37,294 nucleotides of DNA from a virus. Positions 4,066 through 8,419 of the stretch are shown here, in pieces (the first letter of the stretch is position 1; each line of letters starts with the position of its first letter). A program made the position numbers and the translations under genes. The notes beneath the pieces are model-generated. The model did no database searches. It was not told the origin of the DNA and saw nothing but the letters and a program-made list of their open reading frames with translations. The stretch covers positions 1-37,294 of IMG/VR virus record IMGVR_UViG_3300048840_000030. One strand, written 5' to 3'.

Positions 4066-4665
4066 ATGAACAACATCAAAATACTAACAAAACTTCATGC
4101 GATAATGTCTGAAGTTGGTTACATCCAGAAGGACAAGAAGAACGCTTTCCATAATTACAATTATGCTTCTGAGAAAGCAATTAAAGAGACATTGCAGCCG
4201 AAGTTAATTGAACACAAAGTATTATTCCAATTAGGCGTAGTTGGTCAAAGAATTGAAGGTGGTTTAACTTTGGCAGACTTCACTTATGTTTTTTGGGATG
4301 TTGAATCAGGCGAATCAATCTCAGGGACTTTCGCAGGGCAAGGCGAAGACAAACTTGATAAGGGTATTTGGAAAGCTACTACCGGAGCTATCAAGTATAT
4401 CCTTACATCTACTTTCTTAATTCCCACCGGAGACGATCCCGAAGAAAACAATCCGAGAGAAAAAGAGCCTGTTGGATCTGACGCAAAGGCTTTGGCAGAA
4501 TACAAAATAATCCTGTCCGAATTTACCAACCTAGCTGAATATAAAAAGGTTGGCAGAGACTTAATAAAAGACGCAATCAAAAGCGGTGTGACTAAAGATG
4601 ACGCTGAAGGTTTCGCAAGTGTGAGAGTCAGAGAGTTGACTAATGGGACGAAGGAGTTGAAATGA
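4066..4665 (+). CDS. erf: ERF-type single-strand annealing protein
   Basis: 199 residues. The N-terminal 130 residues match the ERF superfamily: KLHAIMSEVGYIQKDKK, the F-NYNYASEKAIKETLQPKL block, and the GxWKATTGAIKYILTSTFLI core followed by PTGDDPE. ERF proteins form rings that anneal complementary single strands during phage recombination and circularisation. The C-terminal part is a variable charged helical tail. It is paired with the exonuclease at 4862, the usual two-component recombinase arrangement. Confidence 0.9.
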   Translation: MNNIKILTKLHAIMSEVGYIQKDKKNAFHNYNYASEKAIKETLQPKLIEHKVLFQLGVVGQRIEGGLTLADFTYVFWDVESGESISGTFAGQGEDKLDKGIWKATTGAIKYILTSTFLIPTGDDPEENNPREKEPVGSDAKALAEYKIILSEFTNLAEYKKVGRDLIKDAIKSGVTKDDAEGFASVRVRELTNGTKELK

Positions 4666-4865
4666 TAATAACAGACATGGACATTGCAACGGTTGAGGCA
4701 TTACACGACTTATTGTTGGACAAACACGGTTACCCACTTAGCCACGTAACATTAACAAGGGCAAGGGCTTTGGCAGCGAAGATGTATGATTTAGCTAAGA
4801 TTGAGAGAAAGCCAGAGTGGTCTGAGTTGTTTAAGTTGGTCGAGAAAATGAGGGAGCCAAAATGA
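4662..4865 (+). CDS. Small hypothetical protein of the recombination operon
   Basis: 67 residues, mostly helical, with ATGA overlaps at both ends (erf upstream, exonuclease downstream). Tight coupling suggests it is made together with the recombinases. No recognised domain. Confidence 0.65.
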   Translation: MIITDMDIATVEALHDLLLDKHGYPLSHVTLTRARALAAKMYDLAKIERKPEWSELFKLVEKMREPK

Positions 4866-5464
4866 TAATTCACGATGTGGAACAAGGAAGTGCGGAATGG
4901 CTAAAGTTGAAAGCTGATAAATTCACAGGCGCTAAGTTTGGCAAGTTATTTATGGGCAAAACTACTGCCGGATATGATGAGGCTATAAATGAAGTCGTTT
5001 ACGGCGTGCTTACCGGCAAGACTCCTGAAGTTTATGTAAACCAATACATGAGAGACGGGACGGAACGAGAACCTTTGGCACGCAGACAATACGAAGCATA
5101 CTACGGCGAATCAGTTGAGCAAGTCGGCTTTGTCGAGCTTAATAAATATGTCGGCTGTTCTCCTGATGGGCTTGTAGGTAAACACGGGATGATTGAAATC
5201 AAATGCCCGAAGTATTCAACACTTATTAACATGCACTTGAAACCTAAAATTGACAAAGGATATTACTGGCAGATGCAAGGCGGTATGTGGGTTTGTGATC
5301 GTGAATGGTGTGACTATTTCGTTTACCATCCAGACTTAGAACCTTATCTGGAACGTGTTGAGCGCAGGCAGACAGACATCGCCAAGTTAGAAATTGAGGT
5401 GGATTTAGCAATCGAAGAAGTAAACAAACGAATTAAACAATTAGGAGGTAATCATGTGGCTTAG
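4862..5464 (+). CDS. YqaJ/lambda-type recombination exonuclease
   Basis: 200 residues with the signature of the PD-(D/E)xK phage exonucleases: GSAEWLKLKADKFTGA at 9-24, E70 in GTEREPLA, D102 in GCSPDGLV, E112 and K114 in IEIKCP, and the QMQ motif at 137-139. These enzymes resect double-stranded ends 5' to 3', giving single strands for the annealing protein. The start overlaps the preceding stop. Length is normal for the family. It should act with the ERF protein at 4066. Confidence 0.92.
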   Translation: MIIHDVEQGSAEWLKLKADKFTGAKFGKLFMGKTTAGYDEAINEVVYGVLTGKTPEVYVNQYMRDGTEREPLARRQYEAYYGESVEQVGFVELNKYVGCSPDGLVGKHGMIEIKCPKYSTLINMHLKPKIDKGYYWQMQGGMWVCDREWCDYFVYHPDLEPYLERVERRQTDIAKLEIEVDLAIEEVNKRIKQLGGNHVA

Positions 5465-5492
5465 AAAAGGCGGATATTGGTGGTTCAGGTGA
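5454..5492 (+). CDS. 12-codon leader ORF
   Basis: ATG 5454 follows TTAGGAGGTAATC, the best ribosome site of the area, and encodes MWLRKGGYWWFR. It overlaps the end of the exonuclease gene. Its TGA (5490-5492) overlaps the GTG (5489) of the next gene. Like the minigene at 3182 it probably serves translational coupling. Confidence 0.45.
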   Translation: MWLRKGGYWWFR

Positions 5493-5893
5493 AAACCAAA
5501 CACAAATACACAGTCGAAAACGACATAATAATTTACCATGACCGGGAGCGACTTTCAGCCGACATGAAGAAATTCAAAGAAGCGTGGATCACCGTGTCAG
5601 ACGAGAAACCAACTCGCAGCAATCAGCAATTAAGGTATTATCGTGGCGTTATTGTTAAAATGATTTCAGATGAAACGGGATACACTGCCGATGAAGTTCA
5701 CATAATGCTTTTAATCAATGCCTTCGGCTCTCACGAAGCTGAAATGTTGGGGAATAAATACCAGATACCTAACAAAACAACATCGGAATTAAACACGGCA
5801 GAAGAAGAAGAATATCATACAGTATGCCGAGAGTTTGCAAGTATCAAAATAAATTTATACATTCCATTACCAAACGAAGTGGAGGTGGAATAA
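5489..5893 (+). CDS. NinB-like recombination protein
   Basis: About 134 residues from GTG 5489. TTG 5477 is also in frame, but GTG overlaps the minigene stop and follows GGTGG. The pattern RSNQQLRYYRGVIVKMISDE, then GYTADEVHIMLL, TTSELNTAE and a C-terminal IPLPNEVE fits NinB-like phage proteins (lambda Orf type), which help recombinases load on single strands coated with SSB. Position directly after the exonuclease supports that. Confidence 0.65.
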   Translation: MKTKHKYTVENDIIIYHDRERLSADMKKFKEAWITVSDEKPTRSNQQLRYYRGVIVKMISDETGYTADEVHIMLLINAFGSHEAEMLGNKYQIPNKTTSELNTAEEEEYHTVCREFASIKINLYIPLPNEVEVE

Positions 5894-6045
5894 TGACTAA
5901 TTATCAAAAGTTTTTTTATGACAAGATGCTAAACCTGTTAAAGAAAACCACATTAAACACGGCACAGAAACACGAAATACTTAATCAGTTACACATGAAA
6001 GTGGCAGTTGATTCACTGCCAGCAATTAAAATAAATTTAACTTGA
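5893..6045 (+). CDS. Small hypothetical protein
   Basis: 50 residues from ATG 5893, chosen because GGAGGTGGAATA precedes it; the open frame extends further upstream without a ribosome site. Basic helical N-terminus (YQKFFYDKMLNLLKKTTLN). The -35 box of the next promoter overlaps its stop codon. Function unknown. Confidence 0.6.
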   Translation: MTNYQKFFYDKMLNLLKKTTLNTAQKHEILNQLHMKVAVDSLPAIKINLT

Positions 6046-6070
6046 CATTAAACAATAATTTTTGTAGGTT
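6042..6070 (+). promoter_or_regulatory. sigma70-type promoter for the tRNA-like RNA
   Basis: TTGACA (6042-6047), 17-base spacer, TAGGTT (6065-6070). The expected +1 is near 6077, about 15 bases before the acceptor-like stem at 6092. Confidence 0.65.
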
Positions 6071-6091
6071 GGTTTAGTTCTTTGAATCAGT

Positions 6092-6262
6092 GAGAGAGTG
6101 GCGGAATAGGTAGACGCTAATACCGTGAGAGCACTCATACGGATAATCGGTGTTCATGCAGGGTGGCTATACGAGTATAGGTGATAACAGAGCAGAAGTG
6201 CGTGATTCGCTCCGTAACAACCTGTCGGAAACACTTTCCTTGTCAAATCCCTGCCTCTCTCA
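6092..6262 (+). ncRNA. tRNA-Leu-like RNA with expanded loops
   Basis: GAGAGAG (6092-6098) pairs with CTCTCTC (6255-6261), then UG and a perfect leucine-type D arm, GGCGGAATAGGTAGACGC (6100-6117). GCAGGG (6158-6163) pairs with CCCTGC (6249-6254) around T...TCAAAT, as in a T arm, but the T loop holds a 78-nt insertion (6165-6242). UACCG/CGGUG (6121-6125/6148-6152) could be an anticodon stem, but its loop is 22 nt. The insertion has hairpins CTATAC/GTATAG, GAGC(A)GAA/TTCGCTC and GGAAA-CAC-TTTCC. No CCA is encoded. It is clearly tRNA-derived or tRNA-mimicking and cannot decode as it stands. An unusual intron or a regulatory RNA is possible. Confidence 0.6.
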
Positions 6263-6851: not shown

Positions 6852-8419
6852 ACAAATACCTAAATACCGTAACGTGTGGAAATTGTCTGGAGGTTCTTAA
6901 AGAGCTTCCAGATAATTCAGTTGATTCAATCGTAACCGATCCTCCTTATGGACTTTCTTTCATGGGCAAAAAGTGGGATTATGACGTTCCTTCAGTTGAG
7001 ATTTGGCAAGCGTGTTTAAGAGTGTTAAAGCCGGGCGGTTTCCTTTTATCATTCGCAGGGACCCGCACTCAACACAGAATGGCGGTCAACATTGAAGATG
7101 CAGGGTTTGAGATTCGTGATATGATTTTTTGGACTTATGCGAGCGGTTTCCCGAAATCACTAAACATTGAAAAACAATTACAGAAACTTTATGAGAAAAC
7201 AATATCCAGCGAACAGAAGACCGAACACGATTTGCGACCTTTGCGAAACTCCGATATATCGCAGACCATCAACATTAGCGAGGAACAAGGGGAAGTTTTG
7301 CAGTCGGAGTTGTCGGAACAAAGTATATCGGAATCAGGGGACGCCCCCAGTAATGCGAGGGAAGGACAACCCAGCATGGAAGGGCGGGGTAACACTAAAG
7401 AGAACTCACGGGAATTATCAAGGGACAACCTATCAGAGGTGCCCGAAGGAATACCTACCAATGGCAAGGAAGGACGGTTACATAATGCAACACCGATTGG
7501 TAATGGCTCAGAGTTTGAATCGACTATTAACAAGAACGGAGGTGGTACATCACATAGACCACAATCCGAGAAACAACAAGATAGAAAACCTGATGCTTTT
7601 TCCGAACAACAGATTACACAAGCTATACGAACATACAAAGGATTTGGCACAGCCCTTAAACCAAGTTGTGAACCCATCACCGTAGCCCGCAAGCCATTAT
7701 CTGAAAAGACCGTAGCTCAGAACGTGCTTAAATATGGAACTGGCGGGATCAATATAGACCAATGCCGAGTTGAGACAGAAGATAAAATTACTATTCACAA
7801 TAATCCAAAGCCATATTCTTTTAGCGGGAATAACTCTGATTTAGATTATAGGGCAAATACTCAAGGTCGTTTCCCTGCCAATCTCATTTTGGACGGCTCT
7901 GATGAAGTCGTGGCGGGGTTTCCTGAGACGAAGAGTGGGGGCTACCCGAAATTAGACGAGTCCTTTTCCGGCGAATCAAACATTACTTTCAGGACAAATG
8001 AAGTTAGGAGTGAAAGAATAAATTTAGACTCCGGTTCAGCCTCACGATTTTTTTATTGCGCTAAAGCATCAAAGCAAGATAGAGATGAGGGGCTGGAGGG
8101 GTTTGAGGGGGGTTACACAACAGAACAAAATAAGTGGACTGAAAATGATTATAGGAAAGGTGACGGAGAAAAAACAAAGCAACCAGTGAAAAACAACCAC
8201 CCGACAGTCAAACCAACCAAACTAATGCAATACCTTGTAAGATTAGTAACACCGAAAAACGGGATAGTATTAGACCCGTTCACAGGTTCAGGGAGTACGG
8301 GCAAGGCGTGTAAATTAGAAGGATTTAATTTCATAGGAATTGAGATGGAAAAAGAGTATGTTGAGATTGCTAAAGCGAGAATTGAAAACGTGAAACTACC
8401 AGACGGGGAGTTGTTTTAA
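6848..8419 (+). CDS. DNA methyltransferase (beta-type, DPPY) interrupted by a nested gene
   Basis: 523 residues from TTG 6848 (TTGA overlap with the SSB stop). Motif IV DPPY is at 31-34, followed by the SFMGKKWDYDVP, LSFAGTRTQHRMA and TYASGFPKSLN blocks. GFGTALKPSCEPI and ARKPLSEKTVA follow near 264-290, then NNHPTVKP and motif I LDPFTGSGST near 475-484. This order (IV before I) marks the N4-cytosine/N6-adenine permuted class. Residues about 115-262 are hydrophilic and Ser/Glu/Asn-rich with no family match. They coincide with an HNH gene read one base later. No restriction enzyme is nearby, so self-protection or epigenetic use is likely. Confidence 0.88.
   Translation: MNKYLNTVTCGNCLEVLKELPDNSVDSIVTDPPYGLSFMGKKWDYDVPSVEIWQACLRVLKPGGFLLSFAGTRTQHRMAVNIEDAGFEIRDMIFWTYASGFPKSLNIEKQLQKLYEKTISSEQKTEHDLRPLRNSDISQTINISEEQGEVLQSELSEQSISESGDAPSNAREGQPSMEGRGNTKENSRELSRDNLSEVPEGIPTNGKEGRLHNATPIGNGSEFESTINKNGGGTSHRPQSEKQQDRKPDAFSEQQITQAIRTYKGFGTALKPSCEPITVARKPLSEKTVAQNVLKYGTGGINIDQCRVETEDKITIHNNPKPYSFSGNNSDLDYRANTQGRFPANLILDGSDEVVAGFPETKSGGYPKLDESFSGESNITFRTNEVRSERINLDSGSASRFFYCAKASKQDRDEGLEGFEGGYTTEQNKWTENDYRKGDGEKTKQPVKNNHPTVKPTKLMQYLVRLVTPKNGIVLDPFTGSGSTGKACKLEGFNFIGIEMEKEYVEIAKARIENVKLPDGELF
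7191..7685 (+). CDS. HNH endonuclease nested in the methyltransferase gene (+1 frame)
   Basis: 164 residues from ATG 7191; TTG 7167 is also in frame. C15-x2-C18 and C37-x3-C41 form a zinc finger, followed by the WKGG motif (63-66). The catalytic block is GYIMQHRLVM, then VVHHIDHNPRNNKIENL (H120, H121, N133). This is the full layout of free-standing phage HNH nucleases that cut DNA to spread themselves. It lies wholly inside the methyltransferase gene, and its last 16 codons use bases that encode the conserved GFGTALKP segment of that enzyme. No clear Shine-Dalgarno is present, so expression may be low. Confidence 0.85.
   Translation: MRKQYPANRRPNTICDLCETPIYRRPSTLARNKGKFCSRSCRNKVYRNQGTPPVMRGKDNPAWKGGVTLKRTHGNYQGTTYQRCPKEYLPMARKDGYIMQHRLVMAQSLNRLLTRTEVVHHIDHNPRNNKIENLMLFPNNRLHKLYEHTKDLAQPLNQVVNPSP

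Follow-up and report, generated by a model that had tools for sequence, protein, structure and literature searches.

An RNA element with a tRNA-like plan in the phage window

The window is a stretch of viral DNA of 37,294 nt (IMG/VR record IMGVR_UViG_3300048840_000030, positions 1 to 37,294). A recombination module at positions 4066-5893, comprising an ERF annealing protein, a RecE-like exonuclease and a weak NinB-like match, lies directly upstream of an element that reads as a tRNA-like RNA with the following parts.

6042-6070, plus strand: possible sigma70-type promoter, weak (TTGACA 6042-6047, TAGGTT 6065-6070; spacing 17; 9/12 matches)
6092-6262, plus strand: whole tRNA-scaffold RNA, type B, including the discriminator-position A at 6262
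6092-6098, plus strand: acceptor stem 5' strand GAGAGAG, partner 6255-6261; covariation across the family
6099-6117, plus strand: U8, G9 and leucine-type D arm (A14, A15, G18, G19, A20a); near-invariant in the family
6118-6157, plus strand: variable domain V1, taking the position of both the anticodon and the variable arm; 7-bp stem, 22-nt loop, last nt U48 (6157)
6158-6163, plus strand: T stem 5' strand GCAGGG, 6 bp; covariation, base-by-base reading
6164-6165, plus strand: U54 and G55 of the T loop (letters TG); G55 in 195/196 members
6166-6243, plus strand: 78-nt T-loop insertion, second variable domain V2; type B subfamily, 59 members
6172-6175, plus strand: CGAG, 5' strand of the V2-closing helix; pairing with the distal tetranucleotide possible in 50/59 type B members
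6239-6242, plus strand: CTTG, 3' strand of the V2-closing helix; CTCG in most relatives
6244-6248, plus strand: C56 A57 A58 A59 U60 of the T loop (CAAAT); base-by-base reading, family elbow positions
6249-6254, plus strand: T stem 3' strand CCCTGC; covariation, base-by-base reading
6255-6261, plus strand: acceptor stem 3' strand CTCTCTC; covariation, base-by-base reading

We confirmed every base of the 7-bp acceptor stem, leucine-type D arm (TGGCGGAATAGGTAGACGC, 6099-6117, read base by base) and 6-bp T stem that a preliminary description of this DNA had placed at 6092-6262. Two further points of that description were borne out: the T loop is interrupted by exactly 78 nt (6166-6243), between TG and CAAAT, and the anticodon position carries a large loop with its own pairing, a 7-bp stem and a 22-nt loop containing TGAG/CTCA. 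Discriminator position 73 (6262) is an A. The proposal of a dedicated sigma70 promoter did not hold up, as 9/12 matches are reached by ~23% of shuffled upstream regions and no promoter enrichment was found upstream of members of the RNA family described below. Folded alone, the whole RNA lies 2 sd below shuffles and the 78-nt insertion 1.3 sd from them; since the single-sequence fold is only 2 sd past shuffles, one sequence alone is insufficient to settle a tRNA-like structure. ARAGORN found zero tRNAs in the window. Covariance models, to which the preliminary description had looked for an identity, supplied none: no Rfam 15 model (intron and tmRNA models included) matched the window RNA even at E=10, and the element itself was matched by neither ARAGORN nor Rfam in the relatives scanned.

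A large family of phage RNAs shares the plan

A blastn search of the stretch against phages matched ~24 nt of the D arm; the matches lie in gaps that carry no annotation, in phages of Lacticaseibacillus, Brochothrix, Enterococcus, Weissella and Listeria. Each match, when read out, gave a 7-bp acceptor, the D arm, a variable stretch, a 6-bp T stem, the loop TGCAAAT and a returning acceptor strand. Most of the matches listed in a D-arm scan of IMG/VR likewise show this plan and not that of an ordinary tRNA-Leu, and a T-arm scan of species genomes found 63 stretches, mostly from Bacillota. With duplicates removed, the family has at least 196 distinct members, a lower bound, collected from IMG/VR contigs, isolate phages and prophages, with Bacillota predominating; in 137 the T loop is intact (type A), and in 59 it holds an insertion (type B, the window's kind). 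The member in SPP1 sits between genes 9 and 11, and further carriers are the Listeria phages PSA, B025 and LP-101, Enterococcus phage EFDG1, the Lactobacillus phages phiJL-1 and Lenus, and Leuconostoc phage Ln-9. A conserved noncoding RNA gene has been left unannotated in the records we inspected, including those of well-known phages (SPP1, PSA, B025, EFDG1). The Listeria A118 prophage, scanned for a link to transcriptome data, does not have the RNA. Host genomes carry it sporadically (19/350 Lactobacillaceae and 3/295 Paenibacillaceae, with a pattern restricted to short V domains), which fits a prophage origin.

The preliminary description had suspected a tRNA-Leu-like mimic that does not decode, and the comparison agrees, since an anticodon arm is displayed by no member among the ~196. 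Close relatives of the window, sought in IMG/VR via the neighbouring proteins, were not found. Matches elsewhere to the window-like V1 start GTAGACGCTAATACCG and T-loop variant GGTGGCTATACGAGTA fall mostly outside the family; the only members among them are L306 and L314, each with another V1. Taken together, the comparison of sequences makes it nearly certain that a large phage RNA family with a conserved scaffold exists. The family is apparently undescribed: no Rfam 15 model matches it, and a literature search covering openly accessible papers found no description, so that an earlier one published elsewhere is possible.

The scaffold is conserved beyond chance and departs from tRNA-Leu

Relatives with covarying acceptor and T stems were the check that the preliminary description had proposed, and both were found. 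In a core alignment of 32 members, 99.4% of cells were paired, with 172 double changes versus 44.5 +/- 7 in shuffles, in a set drawn from members found with at least 6/7 acceptor pairs. Because that set was preselected for acceptor pairing, the unbiased test is one in which such pairing was not demanded and 120 D-arm matches were examined. The motif GTGCAAATC occurred 40-330 nt downstream in 77 of the 120, where ~1 would be expected from motif density in these loci; 71 of these 77 had a 6/6 T stem, 63 had 7/7 acceptor pairing (versus 4% with shuffled partners) and 76 had T at position 48. The preliminary description had noted that GCAGG could alternatively pair with CCTGT at 6221; the pairing preserved family-wide is that of the T stem, GCAGGG/CCCTGC. 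Searching from the T-loop motif instead, we found at 71/104 sites an acceptor that pairs and, next to it on the 3' side, a D-arm-like sequence, with the exact consensus in about half, so that the D arm is near-invariant also when members are sought from the other end.

Elbow positions U8, A14, A15, G18, G19, A20a, U48, U54, C56 and A58 agree with tRNA-Leu; several of these were requirements of the search patterns, and U48 was not. U48 is found in 196/196 members, an invariance predicted by the A15-U48 Levitt pair. G55 replaces U55 in 195/196, at a position where the type A search pattern allowed any base, and the acceptor and T stems stack to 7+6 = 13 bp, compared with 12 in tRNAs. G55 and the 13-bp stack are the two features that set the family apart from tRNAs. 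CCA is encoded in 2/196 members. A73 is present in 55% of type A and 49% of type B, frequencies that barely exceed those of the A-rich flanks, and in 12/14 of the members with a 5-bp T stem, which are mostly ordinary tRNA-Leu. Of the features of a functional tRNA-Leu, the family thus has the D arm and elbow and does not have a 7-nt-loop anticodon arm, A73 family-wide, or a 5-bp T stem with U55.

These positions bear on the idea that the elbow is kept for leucylation by, or occupation of, leucyl-tRNA synthetase (LeuRS), with the V domains secondary. E. coli LeuRS charges tRNA-Leu without its anticodon and variable arms (PMC9976931), which favours such a role, and the elbow preserves A15-U48, G18G19, A20a, G19-C56 and U54-A58 (U48 being the one not imposed by the search, as several others were); the window RNA also has A73. 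The same enzyme needs A73, however, and since only about half of the members have it, leucylation cannot be a general function of the family. The replacement of U55 by G55 and the scarcity of encoded CCA also speak against a LeuRS ligand, which moreover leaves the hypervariable V domains unexplained, and we consider this reading unlikely.

Type B members carry a second domain in the T loop

The T loop of type B follows the pattern TGACTATA-CGAG-TA ... CTCG-[T/G]-CAAAT. In 50 of the 59 members the distal tetranucleotide is one to which CGAG can pair (48 with CTCG and 2, the window included, with CTTG), and in L067 the site of this closing helix is occupied by GCAACA/TGTTGC in place of CGAG/CTCG. 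That the closing helix can form in 50/59 marks the insertion as a second variable domain (V2), located between T-loop nt 55 and nt 56; its length ranges from ~22 to 112 nt.

The preliminary description had also suggested a tRNA with a novel small intron in its T loop. Complete T-loop halves do flank the insert, but the spliced-intron reading fails because no anticodon arm remains once the 78 nt are excised. The insert is absent from most members, which have an intact T loop and yet are equally armless and non-decoding; the inserts themselves have only the closing motif in common, with no intron core, and the window RNA had no Rfam intron match at E=10. An intron is therefore extremely improbable. 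A group I intron-containing tRNA was tried as a separate candidate and rejected, with no group I core match and no intact tRNA after excision. Overall, the preliminary interpretation is partly supported; the main property of these RNAs, hypervariable and exchangeable modules outside the scaffold, requires comparison and is not visible from a single sequence.

IMG/VR has the 15-mer GTGACTATACGAGTA in 103 stretches, which are family members only in part. A related 30-mer was found in 1 of 50,697 phage records, that of an uncultured phage, and was absent from plasmid and E. coli genome collections; a 16-mer was absent from 350 Lactobacillaceae genomes. As type B is nearly absent from the phage, plasmid, E. 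coli and Lactobacillaceae collections, its hosts are probably little-cultured bacteria. In L168 there are two identical copies of the type B RNA (4206-4220 and 6955-6969), ~2.75 kb apart, reflecting a duplication or an assembly artefact.

Variable domains are hypervariable, structured and exchanged

V1, located between the D and T arms, is ~27-190 nt long and forms 163 sequence clusters in the 196 members, while the V2 domains analysed are all singletons (58/58), mutually unrelated in sequence. Among 42 flank-sharing pairs of members, some of which align over a long stretch on one flank only, V1 is at least 87% identical in 10 and at the level of random pairs in 32 (length-matched pairs, 52.1 +/- 5.0%). 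In L018/L146/L168 and in L120/L135/L218, V1 and V2 are both replaced between flanks that are 93-98% identical. Conversely, and outside the flank-sharing pairs, L045 and L049 have the same 44-nt V1 on differing acceptor stems, and related V1 types occur on both type A and type B scaffolds (L006, L098, L180; L018, L025). From these sequence comparisons, it is highly probable that close relatives exchange V as a whole block, and the near-invariant D and T arms are likely the crossover sites for the exchange.

Mean folding z-scores against dinucleotide shuffles were -0.79 for V1 (n=192) and -1.19 for V2 (n=56). Helices covary beyond nearly all shuffles and slid registers both in a three-helix pseudoknotted V type (L106/L263/L276/L283) and in a two-helix V type of six Lactobacillaceae members; as the helices in both models were placed by eye using the few sequences on which they were then counted, these covariation counts are supportive and not independent. 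The V domains are structured, and covarying pseudoknots occur among them. Extra T-arm-like hairpins, e.g. GGTTCGAAACC, are present in the V1 of L018, L025, L010, L041, L036, L061, L086 and L092; T-loop motifs may be reused there as docking modules.

Hypervariable regions on a stable scaffold would also suit a base-pairing regulator, a tRNA-stabilised sRNA whose V domain serves as antisense or guide against shifting RNA targets, namely host or competitor transcripts. The complementarity of V to the surrounding phage DNA is not above that of shuffles, though, and V is folded, often pseudoknotted, rather than exposed. We regard such a regulator as quite improbable.

Genomic context

The RNAs lie in intergenic gaps with same-strand genes on either side, at median distances of ~145 nt. 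The neighbours vary: late transcription activators are upstream in many cases and HNH or terminase genes downstream in some, and other settings include tRNA clusters, the head genes in SPP1 and the recombination module in the window. No partner protein is common to all loci, and the absence of a constant neighbour suits a stand-alone cargo RNA.

A further model follows tRNA punctuation or MALAT1/mascRNA. On this model, the tRNA-like fold would be an RNase P/RNase Z site that separates or stabilises parts of a phage transcript, with V as neutral filler. The positions between same-strand genes and the absence of a promoter signal of its own are what such an element would show. Filler, however, predicts neither structured V domains that covary within types nor the same V on different scaffolds, and a near-invariant D arm is unnecessary for a processing site; we consider processing punctuation rather unlikely.

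Several other RNA-like sequences adjoin the family RNAs. Short elements that resemble tRNAs, having a TTCRANT T arm and a stem of acceptor type but no clear anticodon arm, are found ~60-130 nt downstream in L128 (SPP1), at ~1743-1799 in L002 and downstream in L131; they may represent another class of tRNA-like RNA in phages. A tmRNA missing from the record's shown features is directly upstream of the member in Enterococcus phage EFDG1 (L130:1145-1495). In Listeria phage B025, an rliG/rli62-like sequence just under Rfam thresholds precedes the RNA (L006:1252-1489) and an mcrA RNA follows it (L006:1775-1825); the annotated gene gp64 of this phage (L006:1635-1838) shares sequence with the RNA's 3' part, and its annotation may be spurious.

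A proposed scaffold for exchangeable modules

The scaffold stays fixed while a structured, modular domain is exchanged in blocks between close relatives, a pattern that resembles a specificity determinant under diversifying or frequency-dependent selection. Our preferred reading, to which we assign a probability of about 0.5, is that the tRNA elbow is a scaffold displaying exchangeable target-binding RNA modules. The scaffold would make the RNA compact and stable, with ends that host tRNA-processing enzymes may trim, and would present the V domains as engineered tRNA scaffolds present aptamers. There are about even odds that V binds a variable macromolecular target that differs between hosts or competitors; more tentatively, this target may be a component of host defence or a toxin, which V could block as a decoy. 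Recombination at the near-invariant D and T arms would let phages refresh the specificity of V.

The evidence behind the display reading consists of the number of members, the covariation, the invariance of U48, the V clusters, the folding of V beyond shuffles, the lack of a fixed neighbour, the swaps between flank-sharing members, the occurrence of one V1 on different scaffolds and the recombination genes upstream, and suggests a fast-evolving RNA tool against varied targets. As a counterpoint, hypervariability could also arise from weak constraint on V combined with frequent recombination. Counting against display, V matched no known antitoxin or defence RNAs (Rfam, at the loci scanned), and promoters are not enriched in the family. 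A tested precedent is the pseudo-ToxI of phage PhiTE, a recombination-evolving phage RNA mimic of an antitoxin (PMC3475682). A bolder and somewhat doubtful extension is that tailed phages have a general RNA display system, an elbow with one or two sockets (the anticodon position and the T loop) whose swapped aptamer-like domains would form a natural repertoire of inhibitors against host defences, toxins and rival phages. If V does bind varied targets, every phage supplies an RNA inhibitor shaped by natural selection, and with it a way into the conflict with its host or rivals.

Comparison with known systems

The family resembles the tRNA-Leu of bacteria and phages in its D-arm sequence, elbow tertiary positions and 7-bp acceptor stem, but differs in having no anticodon arm, a 6-bp T stem, G55, A73 in only half of members and a hypervariable domain. 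Like tmRNA, it has ends that resemble a tRNA and, where the anticodon arm would be, a large pseudoknotted domain; unlike tmRNA, it has a leucine-type D arm, T-loop insertions and hypervariability, and the tmRNA covariance model gave no match at family elements (the window and the relatives scanned) while detecting the real tmRNA beside the EFDG1 member. Bacterial Y RNAs (YrlA) and mascRNA are also tRNA-like modules within noncoding RNAs, but their arms are different and the phage element has no above-threshold Rfam match.

GOLLD and ROOL are likewise noncoding phage or prophage RNAs, often near tRNAs and with a function that is not established (PMC12286853). They are 600-800 nt or more and have no tRNA-type core of their own, and their Rfam models gave no match at the loci scanned. 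Also comparable are pseudo-ToxI of PhiTE and the type III antitoxin RNAs, where a noncoding pseudoknot RNA of a phage, changed by recombination, counters a defence toxin (PMC3475682); that RNA, in contrast, is made of tandem 36-nt repeats, lacks a tRNA scaffold and has an established target. A fixed scaffold with cassettes swapped among close relatives resembles, in RNA, the specificity genes of arms races, e.g. restriction S subunits. Engineered tRNA scaffolds and aptamer-tagged tRNAs also place a foreign RNA module on a tRNA body; these are man-made, and the phage family, if the display reading is true, would be their natural counterpart, a use in nature of the tRNA-scaffold idea from RNA biotechnology.
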